A stretch of 29,914 bases of DNA, from the IMG/VR virus record IMGVR_UViG_3300020125_000531, positions 1-29,914 of that record; one strand, given 5' to 3'. The DNA is from a virus. The position numbers were made by a program, and so were the translations under genes. Shown in pieces: positions 1-29,914 of this stretch. The notes beneath the pieces are model-generated. The model made no database searches. It had not been told where the DNA came from and was given only the letters and a program-made list of their open reading frames with translations. Position 1 is the stretch's first letter, and each line of letters starts with the position of its first letter.

Positions 1-97
1 CACGGTGCCACTTTCCGGGTCCGAAGTGTAATCGGACCCATTCCCGCCACGTCTCGGCGCGGCGTAGCGTGCAAGGGACACCGAAGCGCGGACGCGG
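1..97. repeat. Direct terminal repeat, left copy (circular seam)
   Basis: The first 97 bases are identical to the last 97 bases of the window (29818-29914). This is the usual sign of a circular molecule, or of a terminally redundant one, cut at an arbitrary point. The unit genome is then 29,817 bp. The repeat lies inside a small reading frame rather than in a special terminus, which favours an assembly overlap of a circle over a true physical end. Confidence 0.95.
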
Positions 98-798: not shown

Positions 799-1584
799 TC
801 ACGGATTCGCGGCAAAGAACGCCCGAGCGAAACCGGGTGCTGTGATCGCTCGGTGCGCGGCGACATGGCAATGCAGCGCGCGACGACGACCGCGACAGCG
901 CCTGCACGGTGGGCCGCCGCCTAGCGCCTTGACGAACGGCCCGCGCGTCGGGATCGTGAACTCGCCCCACAGCGCCGTTCTCTTCGTCCAGGGGTCGCCA
1001 AAGTCCCGCGGCTCAAACACATCGCGCGGCGTGCCGAGGTACTTGCTCAAGAGACCAGTCGGGTTTTCGAGCGCCCACCAGCGTGGCCGCGTTGCCAACA
1101 CAATCCGCAAGCAAGCCAACACCACTTCGAGCCCACCGCGAATGTCTCGAGGCAAACGCGGGTGACCGTTGCGAGCGATCGAAAACTGGTCGCACGGCGG
1201 CGCAGCGAGCACCCCCCACACATTGCTCGGCGGCCGGAAGGTCCGGACGTCCATGTCCGGAAGCGTCACACGCACCACCCTGTAGCCTGCTTTCTTGTAG
1301 GGCTCGGACCACGCCCCCGAGCCGGCGCAAAGGTCCAAGATGACGCGCGATCGCACCGGTATTACCGCCGGAGCTCGGGTAATACCCCGCCAGCGCGGTA
1401 ATACCGTCTCGAGGGCGCCGGCGCCGGTAATACCCCGACGGCCGCCGAGGGCGCGCCAAAGGAGCCAGGGCCCGAGCCCCTCCGGACCCCTTGTTTTCTT
1501 GCGGATCGCGTCGAGCTTACGGCGCTCCTCATCGGTGATACGCATCGGAAAAACCGCACCGCGTCGACCGTCTCGGTTTTGCAT
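799..1584 (-). CDS. C5-cytosine DNA methyltransferase
   Basis: A 261-residue protein with the hallmarks of the Dcm-type m5C methyltransferases. These are an AdoMet-binding motif I (VILDLCAGSGAWSEPY, residues 81-96), the catalytic motif APPCDQFS with Cys131, and ENP (residues 173-175) with a following WTKRTALWG segment. It is short for the family and the target-recognition region is small. The start MQNRD is preceded by GAGGG. The first 75 residues (MRITDEERRKL then an Arg/Gly-rich stretch) are not part of the fold. The stretch of about residues 50-77 is encoded by four copies of the genome-wide GGTATTACC motif. Likely role: methylating the viral genome against host restriction. It is first in the minus-strand unit that continues through the seam. 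Confidence 0.8.
   Translation of the reverse strand: MQNRDGRRGAVFPMRITDEERRKLDAIRKKTRGPEGLGPWLLWRALGGRRGITGAGALETVLPRWRGITRAPAVIPVRSRVILDLCAGSGAWSEPYKKAGYRVVRVTLPDMDVRTFRPPSNVWGVLAAPPCDQFSIARNGHPRLPRDIRGGLEVVLACLRIVLATRPRWWALENPTGLLSKYLGTPRDVFEPRDFGDPWTKRTALWGEFTIPTRGPFVKALGGGPPCRRCRGRRRALHCHVAAHRAITAPGFARAFFAANP
1358..1434. repeat. Cluster of four GGTATTACC motifs
   Basis: GGTATTACC is present at 1358-1366 and its reverse complement GGTAATACC at 1378-1386, 1397-1405 and 1426-1434. The first two are inverted around GAGCTC and form a near-perfect version of a 26-bp palindrome whose half sites recur elsewhere (3242, 10153, 16957, 16975, 18763, 23308). The cluster lies inside the methyltransferase coding region, close to the divergent control region, as expected of a protein-binding array. 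Confidence 0.8.
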
Positions 1585-2017: not shown

Positions 2018-2455
2018 ATGAATCAGCGCATCCCGGGTAAGCCGCAGCTGCCCAACGAAAAACAAATCCTCGACGCGCACATGATGGCGCAAGCCGAGCG
2101 GCTCGATAAAGCCATCCGCGAGGGCAAGCAATACGGCGACGGCGCGCCGTTCGAGATCGAGCCCGTGGCCCCGGGGTGGATTCTCTGTCACCTCATCGAG
2201 CACCCCGAAAGCGAAGGCGGCATCATCTTTCCTGAGTACGTCGCCAAACGCTTCGTGCACTACAAAGCGGTCCGCGTCGGCCCCCCGGCGCAAAACGCAC
2301 TCGGGCACGACAAGCCGCGCACCGTGACCGAGGTTGGACAAGAATTCGTGACGCAAGGGAGTGCGATGGCTCACGTGCACCGCGGCGTCTCACTCTACTT
2401 CCACCAGCAAGACTCGGTGCTCTGCTGTATCCGTCCGCGCGCGGTGGCGTCGTGA
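2018..2455 (+). CDS. GroES-like co-chaperonin
   Basis: A 145-residue protein whose C-terminal 100 residues follow the Cpn10/GroES pattern. There is a first strand and loop (PGWILCHLIEHP, residues 52-63), the roof-loop-like EGGIIFPE (66-73), KAVRVGPP (83-90), a segment matching the family's KxGD..V region (TEVGQEFVTQG), and a final YF...DSVLCCI strand where GroES has an acidic residue then the last strand. The N-terminal 45 residues are extra and helical. Phage co-chaperonins such as T4 gp31 replace host GroES for capsid folding; that role is inferred here. The ribosome binding site is AAAGGA. The stop overlaps the next start as GTGA. No GroEL is encoded, so it would work with the host's. Confidence 0.55.
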   Translation: MNQRIPGKPQLPNEKQILDAHMMAQAERLDKAIREGKQYGDGAPFEIEPVAPGWILCHLIEHPESEGGIIFPEYVAKRFVHYKAVRVGPPAQNALGHDKPRTVTEVGQEFVTQGSAMAHVHRGVSLYFHQQDSVLCCIRPRAVAS

Positions 2456-3869: not shown

Positions 3870-6209
3870 TCAGGTGAGCGTGCGCAAGAGCTGCGGCGTA
3901 AAGATGATCTCCGCGGCGCACACCGTTTGCTCGGTGGTAGCACCGGTCGAAAACGAAAGCCGCAACGTTCGGGCGGCCGGGGCCGTGACCGTCAGCGCCC
4001 ACGTCGCCGCACCGGCATCGAAAAACGAATCGGTCGGATCGTTGGCGCCGCCGATGATGGTCGCGACTCCCGCCATGCAACGAACGAGCGCGTATACCCT
4101 TCCCGACTGCGCAAGCGTCCCTGCCGCATTGGTCGCAAGCCAGTCGATGATCACGTGATAGACAACATCGTCTTGTAGCTGAACCTCAGCACCGGATGGG
4201 CCGTTGAGCTTCAGTAGCGTCGTTTCACCCGCGCCGAGCCCCGGCGTCGTATTGTAGACACCGAGCCGCGTAGCTTGCATCGCACCGGCAGCGCCGTTGC
4301 CGACGTAGCCGTGCGAATGCTCGGCCAGGCGAAGCGCGTTGGCTTTCAGGCCGGAAGCGTGTGCACCGAGCCCCGCCGCCACGCTCAGCACACCACCGGC
4401 GACCATCGAAAAGTCGCCGCTTGCCGTGTTGGATTGACCACCACCGACAGCCGCGTGGTCACCCGAAGCGGTTCCCGTGCCACCACCGGAAACGACCGCA
4501 CCGCTACCGCTCGCGACGTTGGACGAACCACCACCGACGGTCGAATTGGCCGCAGAAGCGGTGTTGCTGCCGCCACCGCCGACGCTCGAATTGGCGGCGG
4601 AAGCCGCGTTGCCAGCGCCGCCCGCGATGGTCGCACTTGCACCCGACGCGGTGTTGCCATTGCCACCACCAACGGTCGCATTGGGATTGGTCGTGACGGT
4701 GTTGCTGACACCGCCGCCGATGGTGCAGCCCGCTCCGGGGCTCGAGATGTGGTTGCCGGTGCCGCCGCCAATCGAGGCGTCGTCGCCCACGGTCGTGTTT
4801 GATTCACCCCCCGCAATCGTCGAGCCCTGCCCGCCCGCGTTGTTGACGGCACCGCCACCGACGGTCGCATTGACGCCAGCCGTCGTGTTGGTGACACCGC
4901 CACCGATCGTCTGCCCCGTCAGCGCCGCCGTCGCCAAGCCGCCGATGCCACCCGCGACGGTCGAATTGGAAGCTCCGGTGCCGACAGTGTTGCCCGATCC
5001 ACCGCCGATGGTGCTGTTGTCTGCGTCGATCGAATTGGTCGTACCACCGCCAACGGTCGACGCAGCATTGTTGCCGACCTGATTGTGGTCGCCGCCGCCG
5101 ATGGTGTTGAACGAACCGCCGCCGAGCCCGTTACTGAACCCGCCGCCGATGACGTGGTGGTCGCCACCTTCTGAGGCGATCGAATTGGTGTCTCCACCAC
5201 CGATGACCGACGCAACGACGCCCACGATGGTGTTGCTGACACCGCCGCCGATGGTGTCGTGAGCGTCGTCGGCCTCGTTCAGCTCGCCGCCGCCGATCAC
5301 GCTGTTGGCGCCGAGCGCCTGGTTATTTGCACCACCACCGACGGCAGCATTGGTGCCGCCTGCCGTGTTGGTATTGCCGCCCACCACCGAGCTATGACTC
5401 GTCTGTGCTTGGTTGTTTTCGCCACCACCGATAAAGCTTTGGTCGCCGCTCGCCGTGTTGGTGCTGCCGCCGCCGACAGCGGACGCGATGCCTTGCGCCA
5501 GGTTGGTCGTGCCACCCGCAACGGCGGAATTGTCGCCATCGGCCCCGTTGGTGAGACCACCGGCTACCGTTGCATGGTCGCCGCTCACTTCGTTGCCGGT
5601 GCCGCCACCGATGACCCCGGAGATGACTCCGACGTTGACTGTATTGGAGTCGCCACCGCCGATCGCACCGTTGCCGGCGCAAAGATTGTTGGAACCGCCA
5701 CCGATCGAAGAATCAGCTCCCGTCGCAGCTACGGCATTGGCGAGCCCGCCCGCGATGGTGCTGTTGTCCGAATGAGCGGTGTTTTGGTCACCACCCGCGA
5801 CGGTCGCAAAGTTGCCGTCGACCGGAAGCGTCGGCGCCGTCGCGCTACCGTGTGCCGTGATGCCTTGCTTCGTGTCGTCGATGGTCTGCGGGTTGACGCA
5901 TACCGCCGGATCGCGCTTTATGTTGGTGGTGTCGAGCGCCACCGCGTTGTCCGCGATGTAAGGACTCGCACCGCCGCCACCACCGGGCGCTGGCAATGCA
6001 ACCCAGAACCCGCCGCGCACCGACGCGATGTGCGTCGCGTCCGCGGGGCCCACATCGTCAGGCTCCCATACGAAATGGCGCCCGGCCGCTTGCAGCCAAC
6101 ACACCACGCCTTCGCACATCGGCTCGGTAAGGGCGAGATTTGCAGCCGTGTCTACGGCCACCGGGACGCCGGTGTTTTCCGTCGGCGTACGCAAGATGGG
6201 AGTCGTCAT
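3870..6209 (-). CDS. Trimeric fibre / receptor-binding protein with YadA-head-like repeats
   Basis: A 779-residue protein. Residues 1-130 are a probable attachment region. From about residue 135 to 610 there are some 30 short repeats of the form GGGxxNxAxGxxAxV, the pattern of the left-handed beta-roll of YadA-type trimeric adhesin heads. The last 170 residues (from LAEHSHGYVGNG) form a beta-rich domain whose layout (LNGPSGAEVQLQDDVVYHVIIDW... WALTVTAPAARTLRLSFSTG) resembles C-terminal domains of many phage tail fibres. The likely role is host recognition as a homotrimer. The DNA is internally repetitive, which explains several long spurious frames on the other strand. The start is ATG at 6209. 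Confidence 0.8.
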   Translation of the reverse strand: MTTPILRTPTENTGVPVAVDTAANLALTEPMCEGVVCWLQAAGRHFVWEPDDVGPADATHIASVRGGFWVALPAPGGGGGASPYIADNAVALDTTNIKRDPAVCVNPQTIDDTKQGITAHGSATAPTLPVDGNFATVAGGDQNTAHSDNSTIAGGLANAVAATGADSSIGGGSNNLCAGNGAIGGGDSNTVNVGVISGVIGGGTGNEVSGDHATVAGGLTNGADGDNSAVAGGTTNLAQGIASAVGGGSTNTASGDQSFIGGGENNQAQTSHSSVVGGNTNTAGGTNAAVGGGANNQALGANSVIGGGELNEADDAHDTIGGGVSNTIVGVVASVIGGGDTNSIASEGGDHHVIGGGFSNGLGGGSFNTIGGGDHNQVGNNAASTVGGGTTNSIDADNSTIGGGSGNTVGTGASNSTVAGGIGGLATAALTGQTIGGGVTNTTAGVNATVGGGAVNNAGGQGSTIAGGESNTTVGDDASIGGGTGNHISSPGAGCTIGGGVSNTVTTNPNATVGGGNGNTASGASATIAGGAGNAASAANSSVGGGGSNTASAANSTVGGGSSNVASGSGAVVSGGGTGTASGDHAAVGGGQSNTASGDFSMVAGGVLSVAAGLGAHASGLKANALRLAEHSHGYVGNGAAGAMQATRLGVYNTTPGLGAGETTLLKLNGPSGAEVQLQDDVVYHVIIDWLATNAAGTLAQSGRVYALVRCMAGVATIIGGANDPTDSFFDAGAATWALTVTAPAARTLRLSFSTGATTEQTVCAAEIIFTPQLLRTLT

Positions 6210-6756: not shown

Positions 6757-7662
6757 TTACAGGTTGAGACCGAACCGCAGTGACACTTGTGTCGCTCCCG
6801 CATTGGGATTCGAGACGGTCACGCTCTGCGCGCCGCCCGGGATGGGATACACCGTCGCCGCGTTGGCGGCTTGGGCAAAACGACCGAGGTTGACGCCATG
6901 GCCCGCAAACAGAAAGTTGATGGGCACCGAAACGTCGGTCGCAATGTCGATGGCGTAGATCGAGAACGAATTGGCAAACGGCGGGATGATGAAGTTTCGC
7001 ACCGAGCCCACCGCGGGCGACACTGCCATCGCCGCGTAGGTCGACCAGCTCGGACCGATGCCAGGCGATCCCCTCGAGCCGTACGAGAGCGCGGCACCGA
7101 CCACCACCTCGGCAGGCGCGCCGACGGGCAACGCGCCGCCATTGGCGACCGTCGGATCGAAAATCGTGTAGATGCCCGAAACCTGCACGAACGAGCCGAG
7201 CACCGAAACCTGCGTGCCGTCGTTGCAATCCACGTCAGCCGTCACGGTGTCGGCACCGGCGCCCCATTGAAGGCGCGCCTTGATGTCGATCACAAACGCC
7301 GCCGTGCCCGTCGAGCCCTGGATCGGCACTACCGGCGGGTTGAGCGTCACGGTGATGACGCGCGGCGATGGACGTCGCTTGGCGTCGGCGCGCACGATGG
7401 TTGCGACGCTCATCCACGTCGGCTGCACCGTCGTGTCGTTTGGGGGAATCGGCGCACCCGAGGTCGGCGCGTTTTTCAAAACGGCGTTACCGCCGAGCGC
7501 CTGAACGTTGGTTTGCGAGAGCGTGCCGCCGTCGAGCCCGTAGGCGCTCCGCACGAGCGTGCGCAGAAAGGCGAGCCCCGCACCACCACGCGACGCGCGC
7601 TGCTCAGGAGCGGGCGGAACACCGCGCGGGCCCGAGACGGGCATACCGGGAAAGCGATTCAT
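6757..7662 (-). CDS. Beta-rich structural protein, capsid candidate
   Basis: A 301-residue protein. Residues 1-95 form a Pro/Arg/Gly-rich extended arm. From about residue 98 there are eight or more beta strands (RVITVTLNPPVVPI, AAFVIDIKARLQW, TVTADVDCNDGTQVSVLGSFVQVSGIYTIF, AEVVVGAALSYG, VRNFIIPPFANSFSIYAID, VPINFLFAG, SVTVSNPNA, VSLRFGLNL). An N-terminal arm followed by a beta-sandwich is the layout of single jelly-roll capsid or spike proteins. I recognise no specific family. The ATG overlaps the transglycosylase stop (ATGA). Confidence 0.65.
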   Translation of the reverse strand: MNRFPGMPVSGPRGVPPAPEQRASRGGAGLAFLRTLVRSAYGLDGGTLSQTNVQALGGNAVLKNAPTSGAPIPPNDTTVQPTWMSVATIVRADAKRRPSPRVITVTLNPPVVPIQGSTGTAAFVIDIKARLQWGAGADTVTADVDCNDGTQVSVLGSFVQVSGIYTIFDPTVANGGALPVGAPAEVVVGAALSYGSRGSPGIGPSWSTYAAMAVSPAVGSVRNFIIPPFANSFSIYAIDIATDVSVPINFLFAGHGVNLGRFAQAANAATVYPIPGGAQSVTVSNPNAGATQVSLRFGLNL

Positions 7663-10781: not shown

Positions 10782-12488
10782 CTAGGCAGCCGCTTTCAGT
10801 TTCGCCCGTGCCAACATGGGAATCGAGACCGCCTCGCGATTGGCTCGCTCGGCGAGCGCCAGCAGACGAATCGCGCGCGTCGCTTCCGGATCGAGCCGGT
10901 TGTAGCGCTCGACAATGTTGGAGATGCGCGCGCGCACCATCGGATCGCCCGCCTTGCCCTTGGCGACCATCACCCGCAACGTCGACAGCGCCGCGTGCGC
11001 TTCGGCGATCTGCACTTCCTTCGCAGCCGCCTGCACACCGAGCGCGTAGCCGTTTTGGCTCGCGGGCGTCGCGACGTAGGCGTGAATTGCCGCCTTCACC
11101 TCGGCCGGCGCCATGAGCCCGCCCTTCGCCGCGTAGAACGCCGCAACCTCGGTCGGGCTCAACCCCGGAGGCGGAAGTAGACCGAGCTGCCGACCGACAA
11201 AAATCGCCGACGCCGTATCGAACCCCTTCAGCGCATCGACGCTATTGCCGAGCTGCGAGCGCGCGAGGTTGATGCCTGCTTCGGTGAGCCCTTGGCCCTT
11301 GTGCAAAATGCCAACGCCCACGTCGAAACCGAGCTGCACGTCAGGTGGAAGCGTCGAGCGCACCGCCTCGAGAATGGGATCCTTACGCCCGTCACCGGCA
11401 CCGACGGCGCCCGCGAGCTGAATCGCCTTGCTCACGACGCCGAGCCCGGGCACCGACACGCCGCTCGTCGCCTTGTTCCAGAGGTCGCCGCCTACGTCGC
11501 CAAGCGCGGCAATCGCCATCGGGCCGAGGTTGGCCGCAACGGCGCTCTGAATGTTTTGCCCGTGCACCATCGCGAGCCCGATATCGAAAGCCTTCTTGGC
11601 TTCCTCACTCGGCAATTGGTTACGCGCTGCCGACATGAGAGCTTCATCGAAGCTCTTACCGTGCACGACCGCGACCGCCGCGTCGAAACCAGCGCGCACG
11701 AGCGGACCGCCGGGAATCGAACCGCGCACACCCGCCATGAAAGCTTCGTCGATGGTCGCGCCTTGTGCGAGCGCAACGCCAGCGCCGAGCGCCGCCGCGA
11801 CACCAGTACCGATGCCAGGCACGAACGAGATGACGGCTTGCGCGAGCGGCGCCACTTGCGTGACATCAGCCGTGATGCTTTTCCACGCACTACCAAGCGT
11901 GTCGGCAACGTTGTCACCGTTGGCGATGGCGTAGGCGGCTGTGAACGGAGTCGTTGCCATGTGCGCAGCTGCACCGATGGCGCCGACCACACCACCGGCC
12001 ACCGACGAAGCGACGCTACCGATCGAGTCGAGGAAATTCGGGTGAGGCGGACCGTCGTACCAACCGGTTCCTTGCGCAAAAAGCACCTGTTGACCGAGGT
12101 CGCCAATTTCGCTCGCCGGTGCGCCCGCCTTGAGCGCCGCCTGCACAGCCGCCGCGCTCCAAGCTTCTTCCCAGGTCGAGCGATCCCAAAAAAACGCTTG
12201 TTCGTCGGTCGACGAAATCGACAACCAGCCACCCGGGCCAGGTTTGCCTTTTGGCTCACTCGGTTTCGGCTGCGACGGCACCGAGTCGATCACAGCCCTA
12301 AACGAGCGCTGCCCCGAAGCCTGCCCGTACTTCTGCGACATGAACGCCGCGACCTTCGCAGCAACAGGCAACGCAAAAATGAGCGAGGGCGGAGCTACGC
12401 CAACGACGACCATCCCGCCGACGACAGGACGCGCCCCGCGCGCCTCTTGGGCGTGCTTCGCATCGACGATCGCGGCGGCAAAATTCAA
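10782..12488 (-). CDS. Large hydrophobic internal/membrane protein
   Basis: A 568-residue protein, the largest of the late block after the fibre, started by TTG in a TTGA overlap with GGGAG upstream. After an N-terminal hydrophobic helix, the middle (about 170-430) is a series of Ala/Gly-rich helical units with a recurring pattern: IPGGPLVRAGFDAAVAVVHGKSFDEALMSAAR, then LPSEEAKKAFDIGLAMVHGQ, then LPPDVQLGFDVGVGILHKGQ. Units of this kind occur in uncharacterised phage structural proteins. Residues about 502-545 carry a diverged copy of the GDPxA motif (KAGDPMVRARISNI, RLDPEATRAIRLLA). Candidate internal, scaffold-like or injection protein; the function is inferred. Confidence 0.7.
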   Translation of the reverse strand: MNFAAAIVDAKHAQEARGARPVVGGMVVVGVAPPSLIFALPVAAKVAAFMSQKYGQASGQRSFRAVIDSVPSQPKPSEPKGKPGPGGWLSISSTDEQAFFWDRSTWEEAWSAAAVQAALKAGAPASEIGDLGQQVLFAQGTGWYDGPPHPNFLDSIGSVASSVAGGVVGAIGAAAHMATTPFTAAYAIANGDNVADTLGSAWKSITADVTQVAPLAQAVISFVPGIGTGVAAALGAGVALAQGATIDEAFMAGVRGSIPGGPLVRAGFDAAVAVVHGKSFDEALMSAARNQLPSEEAKKAFDIGLAMVHGQNIQSAVAANLGPMAIAALGDVGGDLWNKATSGVSVPGLGVVSKAIQLAGAVGAGDGRKDPILEAVRSTLPPDVQLGFDVGVGILHKGQGLTEAGINLARSQLGNSVDALKGFDTASAIFVGRQLGLLPPPGLSPTEVAAFYAAKGGLMAPAEVKAAIHAYVATPASQNGYALGVQAAAKEVQIAEAHAALSTLRVMVAKGKAGDPMVRARISNIVERYNRLDPEATRAIRLLALAERANREAVSIPMLARAKLKAAA

Positions 12489-13144
12489 GGCACTCCCTTC
12501 GCGCTCGCCGTCGCCCACGTTTGCGGTCCGACGATACCGTCGGCTGTGAGCCCGTGCGCTTTCTGCCACGCCTTGGTAGCTGCCGCGGTGGCCGGCCCAA
12601 ACTGCCCGTCGGCTTGCACGCCGATGATGGCCTGCCACATGGCGACCTCAGCGCCCGAGCTACCTTGCTTGATGGTCGAGTGCGCCGGTGGATGCGAAAG
12701 CACGCTCTGCACCGCCTCGGTTGCCGAAGCGAAAAACCCCGGAGGCGCCGCCGTCGCGGCGCTTGGTGCCGCCGCCTGCTGCGACGCGATGATCTGATCT
12801 GCTTTGGCCGCCGCCGCCGCCGCCGCGCCCGATGCTCCCGTCGCGGCGAGCCCGTTGGCCAGCTGCTGCAACATAGCCGGATCTTCGCTGGTGTTGATGG
12901 CGCTCGTCACCTTCGCGGCGACCTTTTGACTCAACGGACCGAAATAGGCCGGCGATGCCGCTGAGGGGTGCTGGTTGAACGCTGCCGGAGCCCCGGGATA
13001 GGCCGGAATGCCCTTGGCCGGGGGAAGTAGCAGGGGAGCCTTTGCCCGCGTGCGACGCACAGCCTCGACGACGCCGATACCGGCCGCCGCTGCGACCAGG
13101 AAAATCAGCCAATTCGGAACGTTAGGCTTTGCAGTCGTCGTCAT
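12485..13144 (-). CDS. Membrane-anchored peptidoglycan-binding protein
   Basis: A 219-residue protein. Residues 11-28 form an N-terminal transmembrane helix (NWLIFLVAAAAGIGVVEAV). Residues 86-118 carry a DPAMLQQLANGLAATGASGAA motif shared with the 262-residue neighbour. Residues 157-211 are a PG_binding_1 domain (IKQGSSGAEVAMWQ, then DGQFGPATAAATKAWQ, then HGLTADGIVGPQTW). It would bind the cell wall while anchored in a membrane, as expected for a virion vertex or penetration protein. The start lies 25 bp after the 5' edge of the parS palindrome (nine bases from its nearer edge). The stop overlaps a TTG start downstream. Confidence 0.85.
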   Translation of the reverse strand: MTTTAKPNVPNWLIFLVAAAAGIGVVEAVRRTRAKAPLLLPPAKGIPAYPGAPAAFNQHPSAASPAYFGPLSQKVAAKVTSAINTSEDPAMLQQLANGLAATGASGAAAAAAAKADQIIASQQAAAPSAATAAPPGFFASATEAVQSVLSHPPAHSTIKQGSSGAEVAMWQAIIGVQADGQFGPATAAATKAWQKAHGLTADGIVGPQTWATASAKGVP

Positions 13145-13153
13145 GGGGACACC

Positions 13154-13169
13154 TGTTTCACGTGAAACA
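13154..13169. promoter_or_regulatory. Perfect chromosomal-type parS site
   Basis: TGTTTCACGTGAAACA is a perfect 16-bp palindrome and an exact match to the bacterial chromosomal parS consensus bound by ParB/Spo0J. It lies in a 29-bp gap between two late genes, one of the few non-coding spots of the operon. No parA or parB gene is visible in the genome. I found only this copy. It may let the viral DNA load the host's ParB; alternatively it may be a local operator overlapping the leader of the downstream gene. Confidence 0.8.
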
Positions 13170-13173
13170 ACAG

Positions 13174-13962
13174 TCAGATCCTACCCGGGTAGCCAGCTAC
13201 CCGAAAGGGGGAGCGTCGAGCCTTGGTCGCCACGGCTTTCAGGTCCCTGTCGATGCGCTGCACCGTCTCGCGAGCCGCCGCCACGCGCGTCTCGTTGCCG
13301 ACCTCGCCGTCTGCCGGCAAGCCGTTGCCTGCCTGAAAATACGCGGTCGCCTTGCGGGTTTTCAGGCCGAAAATACCGTCGATGCTCATGTCGGCACCGT
13401 TGGCCTTGCGCGCCCACCCCGAGGCGTTGAGGAAGCGTTGCCAACCGGCAACATCCTCACCCATCGAGCCGAGCCCAAGCCTCGGCAACGGCGGCCCAAC
13501 GCCGGCCAGAATGGTTTGCTCGGGCAGCGTCACGCTACCGCGAGAAGCTCCCCACGTGAGAGCACCGACCACGCCGTCGGCTGTGAGCCCGTGCGCCGCC
13601 TGCCAAGCTTTGGTCGCAGCAGCCGTCGCGGGGCCGAATTGCCCATCCGCCGTCACGCCGATGATGGCCTGCCACTGCTTCACCGCCGGGCCGGTCGAGC
13701 CCTGGTGAATCACTGGAGTCGCGCCGTCGGAAATCGCAGCAGCCTTTTGCTTTGCGGCCGTTGCGGCACCGGTCGCGCCGACTTGGCCGAGCTTCGCGGA
13801 AAGCGCGTTGAGGTGCGCGGGGTCGTTCGAGAGGTGAAGGACGTTCATGACCTTGGCTGCCGTCGCGTCGGGCAACGAACCGAACCAATGCTTTTTGCGA
13901 CCTTCGGTCCAAACGAGCCAACCAGCAGCCAAGCCGAGCGGCCATGCGAGGAGGGGAATCAT
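13174..13962 (-). CDS. Membrane-anchored protein with two peptidoglycan-binding domains
   Basis: A 262-residue protein. The N-terminal membrane helix is MIPLLAWPLGLAAGWLVW. The shared DPAHLNALSAKLGQVGATGAA motif follows at 47-72, then PGBD 1 at about 85-139 (GSTGPAVKQWQAIIG, DGQFGPATAAATKAWQ, LTADGVVGALTWG). PGBD 2 lies at about 164-228 (GSMGEDVAGWQRFLNASG, SIDGIFGLKTRKATAYFQ, LPADGEVGNET). A basic helical tail ends the protein. PGBD 1 is closely related to that of the 219-residue neighbour, so one probably arose from the other by duplication. The start overlaps the peptidase stop (ATGA). Confidence 0.85.
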   Translation of the reverse strand: MIPLLAWPLGLAAGWLVWTEGRKKHWFGSLPDATAAKVMNVLHLSNDPAHLNALSAKLGQVGATGAATAAKQKAAAISDGATPVIHQGSTGPAVKQWQAIIGVTADGQFGPATAAATKAWQAAHGLTADGVVGALTWGASRGSVTLPEQTILAGVGPPLPRLGLGSMGEDVAGWQRFLNASGWARKANGADMSIDGIFGLKTRKATAYFQAGNGLPADGEVGNETRVAAARETVQRIDRDLKAVATKARRSPFRVAGYPGRI

Positions 13963-14372
13963 CCTTGGCCTTTCATCCCGAGCCGCTTGCTCGGGTCGTC
14001 CACCCCGTAAGGGGTCCACACCTTGATGTGGTACATGGTGAATTTCTCGCCGTCTGGCCGTACGCCTTGCCAGTTTGACCACATGGGGCGCGCTGGAATG
14101 CCACGCACTCTCAGCTCAGCAACGCGCCACGCGGCCAGGTCCTCACAGTCGGCGCCACCTTGGCGCAACACGTTGGGGATCGGTATCCACTGCTCATACC
14201 CCCATTCCTCTCGAATGTACCGGACGCCGCTCGAGTAGAGCAGCGGCGTTTCCGGGTGCCAGGCGAGATACAGCTCATCGAGCCGAATCAGGGTCCAGAG
14301 CAGAATTTGAAGCGCGCGATTCCTGTGGCCTTCGTCGCGCTCCAAATCTACTTCGAGGGAGATGTTGAGCAC
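13959..14372 (-). CDS. Transglutaminase-fold cysteine peptidase-like protein
   Basis: A 137-residue protein from a GTG start. It carries the transglutaminase-like catalytic triad pattern: Cys76 in GGADCEDLAAWRVAELRVRG, His115 in MYHIKVW, and Asp in VDDPSKRLGM (about 125-126). Phage proteins with exactly this order (DCEDLAAWR...H..V...DPS..LGM) are frequent among structural genes and are thought to process or crosslink proteins, or to act on peptides of the wall. It sits between the capsid-like gene and the peptidoglycan-binding proteins. The start is chosen because the upstream capsid-like gene ends 20 bases before it; no perfect ribosome binding site is present. Confidence 0.75.
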   Translation of the reverse strand: MLNISLEVDLERDEGHRNRALQILLWTLIRLDELYLAWHPETPLLYSSGVRYIREEWGYEQWIPIPNVLRQGGADCEDLAAWRVAELRVRGIPARPMWSNWQGVRPDGEKFTMYHIKVWTPYGVDDPSKRLGMKGQG

Positions 14373-16956: not shown

Positions 16957-16983
16957 GGTAATACCGCGAGCTCGGGTAATACC
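16957..16983. repeat. Two GGTAATACC motifs ahead of a ribosome binding site
   Basis: GGTAATACC at 16957-16965 and 16975-16983, joined by GCGAGCTCG. The second with its flank is the reverse complement of the extended motif at 3242. GGAGG, the ribosome binding site of the next gene, follows immediately, so a protein bound here could control its translation start region or transcription. Confidence 0.85.
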
Positions 16984-20092: not shown

Positions 20093-20292
20093 CGCTCACC
20101 ACCGGGAAGCACACGCAACCCAACCGACGACGACACGCGCCCGAAAAGCTCCAACCCGGCAGCCATCGAAAAATAGAACTTCACCAAGGCGGCGGCGACG
20201 ATTGGATCTTCGGGCATCGGAATCGGTCGCATGTGCTCTATGGGCTCGTGGGGTAACCACAAGCACAGAAACGGCGGGTCGGTCTGGTTCAT
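20089..20292 (-). CDS. Hypothetical 67-residue protein
   Basis: MNQTDPPFLCLWLPHEPIEHM... has a Pro/His-rich N-terminus and one moderately hydrophobic helix (VAAALVKFYFSMAAGLELFG). It directly follows the replication initiator and overlaps it by ATGA. No family is recognised. Confidence 0.55.
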   Translation of the reverse strand: MNQTDPPFLCLWLPHEPIEHMRPIPMPEDPIVAAALVKFYFSMAAGLELFGRVSSSVGLRVLPGGER

Positions 20293-21857
20293 GCGGCGAC
20301 CGCCTCTCTCGCTACGGTGCCAGAGCCACGATAGCGGGCGAGCGCCGCCAGCAGCGCTTCGTAGATTCTCGTCGCAGCTTTCTCCGGACCGTGACGCCGT
20401 AGCTCATCGTCAGCAATCACGTCAGCCACGTCTCGGAACAAAATGCGCATCATCCGACGGAGGTACCCCTCGAGCGCCCGCGCGTAGTCGCGCTCGTCAT
20501 GGCCCATCGTCGGCGGCGCGTCGGGCACCGACAGTCGACCCGAGCCAGCGAGCGCCGAGATCGCCGCGCCACGAGCTTGCGCCGGGGGCGCGCCCTTGCG
20601 CTGCGGTCGGATGCGCGCGTAGGGGACCGGAGCGTTGTCAGCGTAGGTCGCATCCTGCACAGCCCGCCAAGCGTCGACAATTTTCCAACGAGTCACACGC
20701 TCTTCGTCGTCGCGCTCTCGCCAGGTGAGCCACACGCGACTCGCGTAGTTCCAGAGCGCATCGCGCGCCCCAAAATACTCGGGCATCGTGCGAGCCCGTA
20801 CCGTCTCGAGCACACCGTCGGTTGTCACCACCTCAAAGCCGTTTTGCAAAACCTCGGTGCGCAACTGGAACTCGACGCGCGTCACTGCGTCGAAACCGTT
20901 CCAGCCCGAAGCGGCCCACAAGTCTTGCTCGGTGCCACGCTTGCCCTCGCGACCAGCACATGCCAGCTCTTCGGTCTTGTTGTAAACGCGCGCCATGAAT
21001 GGAGCGCCGGGACAGACCGTCCAACCGGTCACGCTGCGATTGCGCACGTACACCTTGCGCGTGTCGGGCTCAGCGAACCCCGTGCGCGTCGCTCGAGGCG
21101 CACGCTTGACGATTAGCTCATCAGCAAAAATATCTTCGAGAGGGAAGCCCACCAAGTCGCAAGCCTCGTCGCCGCGACGCACGCGCTCATTGTCGGGGCC
21201 AAAGTCGGCGACGGTGCCGAACGACTGAGCAATGGCCCTGGCACGTTCGATGACCTCGCCCGGATCGTGGGTCGCCAAAAACAGCGCATCGAACGTCAAC
21301 TCGAACGTCCAGCCGCCTGGAGCTCCAAGCCGCAGCTCCCCCCGAGCCTCCCCCGAATGCCAGCGCCAGAGGTCAGCCGTCATTGTAGGTGAAAGTGAGA
21401 CACTAAATCCGCTCGCGAAGTCCACCGAGACGGCCTGTCGGAGGTTTTGAGCAAGCTCGGCCCTGGTCCGGAGCAACTCGAGGCAGGTAGGGTCCAGCCG
21501 CCACGCCACCGTCAAAGCGTCGGTTCTGCGGCGCAAGACGGTGGGGTTTTGGTCTTGTGACCCGGGGGTCGAGCGGAGGGGGGAAAGGGGTCGAAACGAC
21601 TGGCGTGCAGCCGCTCCCGTGGCCGCTCGCGCCGACCGAAATGGTCTTGTGAGGGGGGTGTTACCTGACCCCCCGCCGGCATCGCCCTGCCGTGTGACCA
21701 TACGTGACGATACGTCAGCGGCCATAGGTGACCATATGTGACCATATGCGCCTGAGGCCGACGGAACGGGCGCGGGCTCGGGCATGCCGAGCACGTCACC
21801 GGGCGGCGGCACCCTGCCGGCGATGCGAGCGACTCGAGCGCGAAGGGATTCGTTCAT
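20289..21857 (-). CDS. rep: Rolling-circle replication initiator (Rep_trans-like)
   Basis: A 522-residue protein. Residues 110-345 show the layout of the Rep_trans / phage replication initiation factor family. A beta-strand with the metal-site-like region comes first (GGWTFELTFDALFLATHDP), then TGWTVCPGAPFMARVYNKTEE (with Tyr292, the candidate nicking tyrosine region). DLWAASGWNGFDAVTRVEFQLRTEVL follows (the conserved W...G...V.R.E.). Such enzymes nick one strand at the origin and remain attached through tyrosine. The N-terminal 105 residues are low-complexity and are encoded by DNA carrying iterons and a strong hairpin. The C-terminal helical part (380-522) is specific. The start overlaps the upstream stop (ATGA). 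Confidence 0.75.
   Translation of the reverse strand: MNESLRARVARIAGRVPPPGDVLGMPEPAPVPSASGAYGHIWSPMAADVSSRMVTRQGDAGGGSGNTPLTRPFRSARAATGAAARQSFRPLSPLRSTPGSQDQNPTVLRRRTDALTVAWRLDPTCLELLRTRAELAQNLRQAVSVDFASGFSVSLSPTMTADLWRWHSGEARGELRLGAPGGWTFELTFDALFLATHDPGEVIERARAIAQSFGTVADFGPDNERVRRGDEACDLVGFPLEDIFADELIVKRAPRATRTGFAEPDTRKVYVRNRSVTGWTVCPGAPFMARVYNKTEELACAGREGKRGTEQDLWAASGWNGFDAVTRVEFQLRTEVLQNGFEVVTTDGVLETVRARTMPEYFGARDALWNYASRVWLTWRERDDEERVTRWKIVDAWRAVQDATYADNAPVPYARIRPQRKGAPPAQARGAAISALAGSGRLSVPDAPPTMGHDERDYARALEGYLRRMMRILFRDVADVIADDELRRHGPEKAATRIYEALLAALARYRGSGTVAREAVAA
21551..21674. other. Candidate replication origin elements within rep
   Basis: GGTCTTGTGA occurs twice (near 21554 and 21643). 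Right after the second comes a 7-bp G/C stem (GGGGGGT 21653-21659 with ACCCCCC 21668-21674) around the loop GTTACCTG. The string GGTGTTACC within it differs by one base from the genome-wide GGTATTACC motif. A hairpin beside direct repeats and iterons inside or next to the initiator gene is the normal place for a double-strand origin of rolling-circle replicons. The nick site itself cannot be assigned. Confidence 0.5.
21694..21746. repeat. Iteron array, 10-bp phased
   Basis: Copies of GTGACCATA start at 21694, 21704 (GTGACGATA), 21718 (GCGGCCATA), 21728 and 21738. Spacings of 10, 14, 10 and 10 bp put most units on one face of the helix. The array lies in the region coding for Rep residues 38-55. 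Two more units occur at 23767 and 23777. Probably a binding site for Rep or another replication protein. Confidence 0.65.
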
Positions 21858-29771: not shown

Positions 29772-29914
29772 GGTCGACCCTCGCCAATCGTAAGTCTCCA
29801 GAGGTCACCAACAATCACACGGTGCCACTTTCCGGGTCCGAAGTGTAATCGGACCCATTCCCGCCACGTCTCGGCGCGGCGTAGCGTGCAAGGGACACCG
29901 AAGCGCGGACGCGG
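29768..29914 (-). CDS. Seam-spanning small protein, C-terminal part
   Basis: This is the second view of the gene annotated at 1-115. Here the window keeps the C-terminal codons (ending VGDLWRLTIGEGRP) and part of the repeated segment but lacks the ATG, which lies 18 bp beyond the end in circular coordinates. It should be counted once with the entry at 1-115. Confidence 0.45.
   Translation of the reverse strand, partial: PRPRFGVPCTLRRAETWREWVRLHFGPGKWHRVIVGDLWRLTIGEGRP
29818..29914. repeat. Direct terminal repeat, right copy
   Basis: Identical to 1-97; the circle closes here. See the left copy. Confidence 0.95.

Follow-up and report, generated by a model that had tools for sequence, protein, structure and literature searches.

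An exact copy of the chromosomal parS site lies in a 29-bp intergenic gap of a virus record in which no viral ParA or ParB was found, and the same site recurs, and is conserved, in other phages that lack ParB. The record is IMGVR_UViG_3300020125_000531, and the entire stretch of 29,914 bases that we analyzed is referred to here as the window. The explanation that we favor, with a probability of roughly 0.55, is that host ParB is loaded at this orphan parS onto the circular DNA of the virus, which helps the genome to stay with or near the host chromosome.

Results

A perfect parS site between two peptidoglycan-binding genes

The sequence TGTTTCACGTGAAACA is a perfect 16-bp palindrome that matches the chromosomal parS consensus at 16 of 16 positions; the same word served as the parS query consensus in PMC10197239. 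It occurs once, as the only match within three mismatches across all 29,914 bases, and dinucleotide shuffles of the window yielded 0.09 matches at that tolerance. Given the base composition of the window (64% GC), 1.1e-6 copies of the exact 16-mer are expected. These results confirm the original prediction that the site is perfect and that such a match is very unlikely to arise by chance in GC-rich DNA. The window contains three perfect 16-bp palindromes, of which parS alone is AT-rich. The features needed for the following description are these:

13154..13169, no strand: parS palindrome TGTTTCACGTGAAACA (exact match, composition odds, enrichment in viral contigs)
13145..13173, minus strand: intergenic gap of 29 bp holding parS and a Shine-Dalgarno-like AGGTG
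12485..13144, minus strand: downstream gene, 219 aa, with a C-terminal PG_binding_1 domain (Pfam PF01471, 1e-12; PHROG endolysins)
13174..14082, minus strand: upstream gene with PG_binding_1 in two stretches (Pfam PF01471, 1.8e-21)
1..97, no strand: left direct terminal repeat, identical to 29818-29914
29818..29914, no strand: right direct terminal repeat, identical to 1-97
20289..21857, minus strand: putative rolling-circle initiator, 522 aa (tblastn 6e-4 to 6e-3, ∼31% identity)

The palindrome takes up 16 of the 29 bp between the two peptidoglycan-binding genes, both of which are on the minus strand. Read on that strand, the gap is TGA-CTGT-parS-GGTGTCCCC-ATG, where TGA is the stop codon of the upstream gene and the ATG at 13144, reached after the 29 bp, opens the downstream gene. 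The upstream gene ends 4 bp before parS, and parS ends 9 bp ahead of the downstream start codon; the AGGTG starts with the last A of parS and thus overlaps the site. No sigma-70-like promoter was seen near parS. The PG_binding_1 match agrees with the expectation of a downstream peptidoglycan-binding gene, and by sequence reading its product has a hydrophobic N-terminal segment. The true start of the upstream gene is probably internal. A 125-nt direct repeat (12514-12638 and 13551-13675, 78% identical) was found inside the two flanking genes, which therefore look like a duplication. Since peptidoglycan-binding, SLT, and transglutaminase-like genes surround parS, its location within a late operon is plausible.

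Absence of viral ParA and ParB matches

No match to ParB_N (PF02195) was found in the record by a search that matched 10 of 14 control genomes, and none to the ParA-type ATPase family (PF13614), for which all 14 controls were positive. A regex search of every frame of the window revealed no convincing Walker A motif. The site thus stands without parAB, as anticipated: a self-contained ParABS system would have genes for ParB and ParA along with parS, and neither was found in the record. The combination of a parS site with no viral ParB is that of the phi29-type arrangement; the several copies of parS that also characterize that arrangement are not seen in the window, which has one. No gene for lysogeny or plasmid maintenance was recognized in the window.

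Other features of the genome

Given its 97-bp direct terminal repeat, the 29,817-bp genome is either circular or circularly permuted. The 20289-21857(-) product has no match in Pfam or NCBIfam; it shows weak similarity to the gene II endonucleases found in filamentous phages of Thermus, and this likeness suggests replication by a rolling-circle mechanism. Other recognizable genes encode an SLT lytic transglycosylase, a transglutaminase-like protein, DUF3310, and a C5-methyltransferase. Because no capsid, terminase, or packaging ATPase was recognized in the record, its assignment as a virus depends on how it is listed and on the lysin-type and phage-type genes that it carries. The region 6757-7662 was considered as a capsid candidate and set aside when its AlphaFold2 model (pLDDT 34) was unusable. 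With ∼30 kb, a circular-type genome, a putative rolling-circle initiator, and no detectable relatives, the record possibly represents an undescribed virus type.

Several other features were recorded. The 779-aa product of 3870-6209(-) has many degenerate GG(G)xxNTASG-type repeats and no Pfam match; on reading, the repeats resemble those of trimeric adhesin heads, and the protein is a possible spike or fiber. A weak match to Cpn10 (GroES; E = 0.038) was found for 2018-2455(+). GroES-like proteins were also noticed by eye in the marine parS phages described below, and a GroES is annotated in Planktothrix phage Pag-Yong1, which is related through terL and lacks parS. The motif GGTAATACC is present in ten copies on either strand of the window (1358-1434, 3242, 10153, 16957-16983, 18763, and 23308) versus 0.115 expected, and five of the ten sit inside the longer GAGCTCGGGTAATACC. 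Several copies are directly upstream of start codons (ATG 16994 on the plus strand; ∼3226 on the minus strand), and the motif is a candidate start-associated operator or promoter. The 16-mer of the GGTAATACC/GAGCTCGGGTAATACC set also lies at the start of a methyltransferase gene (57% identical to that of the window) in IMGVR_UViG_3300036784_000063.

Relatives and possible host

No relatives were found in IMG/VR by using four window proteins, and a DNA-level search of phages with the window gave no match. The Rep protein had no relatives among GTDB genomes and none that was convincing in 379 genomes of the Nannocystis phylum. The methyltransferase matched Nannocystis exedens over a short segment of 57 aa (72%), and it also gave the 57% match in IMGVR_UViG_3300036784_000063, a record with no parS and no further gene in common with the window. 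Myxococcota may be the host phylum, a weak lead from sequence similarity. In the N. exedens genome, five parS-like sites of the TGTTCCACGTGAAACA type are clustered, the Myxococcus xanthus parS consensus is TGTTCCACGTGGAACG (PMC3899335), and 60 of the 379 genomes searched from this phylum contain the exact parS word; it is possible that the host is a member of Myxococcota that has this word.

Exact parS in other virus records

Because no relatives of this virus were found, we examined the broader idea that viruses lacking ParB carry parS. IMG/VR contains the exact 16-mer in at least 120 stretches. The baseline for this enrichment is one control palindrome of matching composition, TGTTACACGTGTAACA, which was found in 3 IMG/VR contigs; it is at least 40-fold rarer than parS, and therefore at most a few percent of the parS-bearing contigs would be coincidental. 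Among the 120 loci listed (of at least 120), 65% of the sites are in non-coding DNA according to a crude gene model, compared to 24% of random positions and 27% of AT-matched 16-mers. Single-linkage clustering of proteins placed the 120 listed loci into 35 groups, a rough count of lineages in which one group merges 72 loci.

Fifty parS-bearing records, including many short fragments, were searched whole. ParB_N was absent from 48 of them, with one of the two matches exceeding the family cut-off, and a phage terminase was detected in 14. Bacterial contamination is unlikely to be the whole account of parS in IMG/VR, because ParB_N is present in 2 of the 50 records only and named phage genes flank several sites. 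Three viral contigs (L017, L044, and L053) have three to five exact parS sites within ∼1 kb in a chromosome-like cluster, and a terminase adjoins the cluster in L044.

A conserved site upstream of terL in a marine lineage

By using the terminase of one parS carrier (L066), we fetched 80 relatives regardless of whether they contain parS; the lineage, and not its individual members, was thus picked for having the site. Exact parS was found near the terL start in 57 of the 80 loci and a site within one mismatch in 59, while several of the loci without parS begin too near terL to include it. Nearly all of the sites are 107 to 152 nt before terL (one is at 327), and 191 shuffled palindromes with the same half-site letters matched a mean of 0.06 loci at up to three mismatches. 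In an alignment of 51 distinct sequences, the parS columns were 99.8% conserved versus 79% for the other columns and 92% for the best other 16-column stretch; the alignment was anchored on parS, so these values describe conservation given presence. In 19 longer records from this lineage, with lengths reaching 57.5 kb, ParB_N had no match. One copy of parS is the rule in the six records of the lineage scanned whole, and for that reason multiple copies may not define phi29-type use.

Pelagibacter is the host of the cultured relatives HTVC027P and HTVC023P. HTVC027P has a one-mismatch parS, CGTTTCACGTGAAACA, ∼4 kb before terL, and no parS within two mismatches was detected in HTVC023P or in three more distant named phages. 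The marine lineage resembles the window virus in having parS in a gap that precedes a structural or late gene and in having no ParB_N in the records searched; it differs in that its members are tailed phages with a terminase, and no kinship between the two was detected.

Comparison with known parS arrangements

Phage phi29 has four copies of TGTTTCACGTGGAACA, one mismatch away from the parS consensus, and in shuffles of its genome a tolerance of three mismatches gave 0.17 matches. The capture of phi29 DNA by the spore involves Spo0J, the ParB homologue of the host (Meijer 2005, cited in PMC9437464). Like the window virus, phi29 combines parS-type sites with no annotated ParB gene. The two differ in that phi29 is a tailed phage, is linear and protein-primed, infects a sporulating host, and has four near-perfect sites, whereas the window virus has one perfect site, a circular-type genome, and a putative rolling-circle initiator. 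Two phi29-like contigs are among the parS carriers, L071 with two sites and L010 with six; both possess the phi29-type packaging ATPase and head protein families, and L071 also encodes a member of a phage DNA polymerase family. In L071 (11.7 kb), parS is near each end (132-147 and 11579-11594), and the flanks are oppositely oriented and partly similar.

The mobile element SGI1 contains parS mimics that are bound by the ParB of its helper (IncC) plasmid, from which it gains stability (PMC10954446). It is comparable to the element in the window as a mobile element with parS-like sites (two in SGI1), and it makes use of the ParABS system of another replicon. The SGI1 case was demonstrated experimentally and involves a plasmid ParB and plasmid-type parS, whereas the window has the chromosomal consensus and is known from sequence alone. 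The phi29 and SGI1 precedents make a site with borrowed ParB a known kind of arrangement. Chromosomal parS of the Bacillus, Caulobacter, and Streptomyces type is the same 16-bp word as the window site, but on chromosomes the sites usually lie together close to the origin, in a genome that also contains parAB, whereas the window site is single and accompanied by neither gene.

Discussion

In the mechanism that we favor, host chromosomal ParB would recognize the viral parS during infection, close as a CTP clamp, and slide onto the circular viral DNA, and the resulting partition complex would allow host ParA and ParB to retain viral genomes alongside the chromosome or to distribute them with it. 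Such a partition or positioning role would most likely operate while the virus is in a carrier or plasmid-like state or when the host cell divides. The original prediction of host-ParB use by a ParB-less virus is strengthened insofar as the site is real, beyond chance, and orphan, and it fits both phi29 and the marine lineage with its conserved site; binding by the ParB of this virus's own host and CTP-dependent loading are what the mechanism would further entail. Counted against partition are the single site compared to the four of phi29, the lack of detected relatives of this virus, the absence of a recognized gene for lysogeny or plasmid maintenance, the lack of detected kinship to the lineage in which the site is conserved, the TGTTCCACGTGAAACA-type sites of Nannocystis, the M. 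xanthus consensus TGTTCCACGTGGAACG, and the restriction of the exact word to 60 of 379 genomes in that phylum.

We considered whether the palindrome is something other than a functional viral parS. An unused 16-bp palindrome could coincide with the parS consensus, and this notion draws on the single copy, the lack of relatives found in our searches that might show conservation, and the scanning of many windows and famous motifs at the first stage, which inflates coincidences. It is nevertheless improbable in view of the 1.1e-6 copies expected per window of the same composition, the at least 40-fold rarity of the control palindrome in IMG/VR, and a placement within the 29-bp gap that looks non-random. 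Nor do we give much credence to a different reader of the palindrome, be it an RNA hairpin beside the Shine-Dalgarno sequence or a binding site, coincidentally matching parS, for a repressor of the virus or the host. The transcript could fold into a hairpin with a 7-bp stem and a loop of 4 nt (∼-8.9 kcal/mol) ending at AGGTG, and the window has another recurrent start-associated motif in GGTAATACC, but a hairpin or operator needs no exact parS word, and the site occurs once. The hairpin version was rejected when the fold proved no better than shuffles (z = -0.3 at 41 nt and +1.7 at 61 nt). It is similarly doubtful that the record is non-viral, as a plasmid-like rolling-circle element or a host-derived piece with chromosomal parS. 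The lack of a recognized capsid, terminase, or packaging ATPase and the weakly phage-like replication initiator are consistent with that origin, yet the sequence is listed as a virus record, it encodes several wall-degrading or wall-binding proteins with matches to endolysin and lytic tail families of phages, and its DUF3310 and methyltransferase genes are of phage type; moreover, if the element were a plasmid, its orphan parS would likewise imply the use of host ParB.

A separate alternative retains host ParB binding and assigns it a regulatory benefit, with loading and spreading tuning transcription of the adjacent peptidoglycan-binding genes and no segregation. The position of parS, 9 bp before a start codon and overlapping AGGTG, is compatible with this idea, as is its location upstream of a late gene, terL, in the marine lineage. 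In Pseudomonas aeruginosa, raised ParB levels are reported to potentiate repression of the promoters adjacent to parS3 and parS4 (PMC5521831). In the window, however, parS is embedded in a tight same-strand run of genes with no promoter-like site, and the proposal that ParB regulates the downstream gene gained no specific support. ParB repression in other systems is modest, and the phi29 and SGI1 precedents favor DNA capture or stability. We therefore view a solely regulatory function as unlikely and prefer host-ParB loading that keeps the viral genome with the chromosome.

Our searches, which covered open-access papers and few subscription ones, turned up no report of an orphan parS for the Pelagibacter-phage-like lineage or for genomes like that of the window, and the absence of an earlier report is a weak sign of novelty. 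We judge the odds to be even that orphan parS is a widespread viral trait by which many unrelated ParB-less phages dock their DNA on the host ParB partition machinery, a reading that spans the Pelagibacter-phage-like lineage, with its near-invariant parS upstream of terL, and circular, putative rolling-circle genomes. The system is directly testable: the site is short, its reader protein is known, an assay that depends on CTP exists, and HTVC027P is a cultured phage whose site is near-perfect. If confirmed, the wider pattern would be of more interest than the single site; it would make the phi29/Spo0J case one instance of a general strategy that is not confined to sporulating hosts, and the borrowing of host ParB by means of a 16-bp tag may be a common viral tactic, including among marine phages related to those of SAR11 (Pelagibacter).
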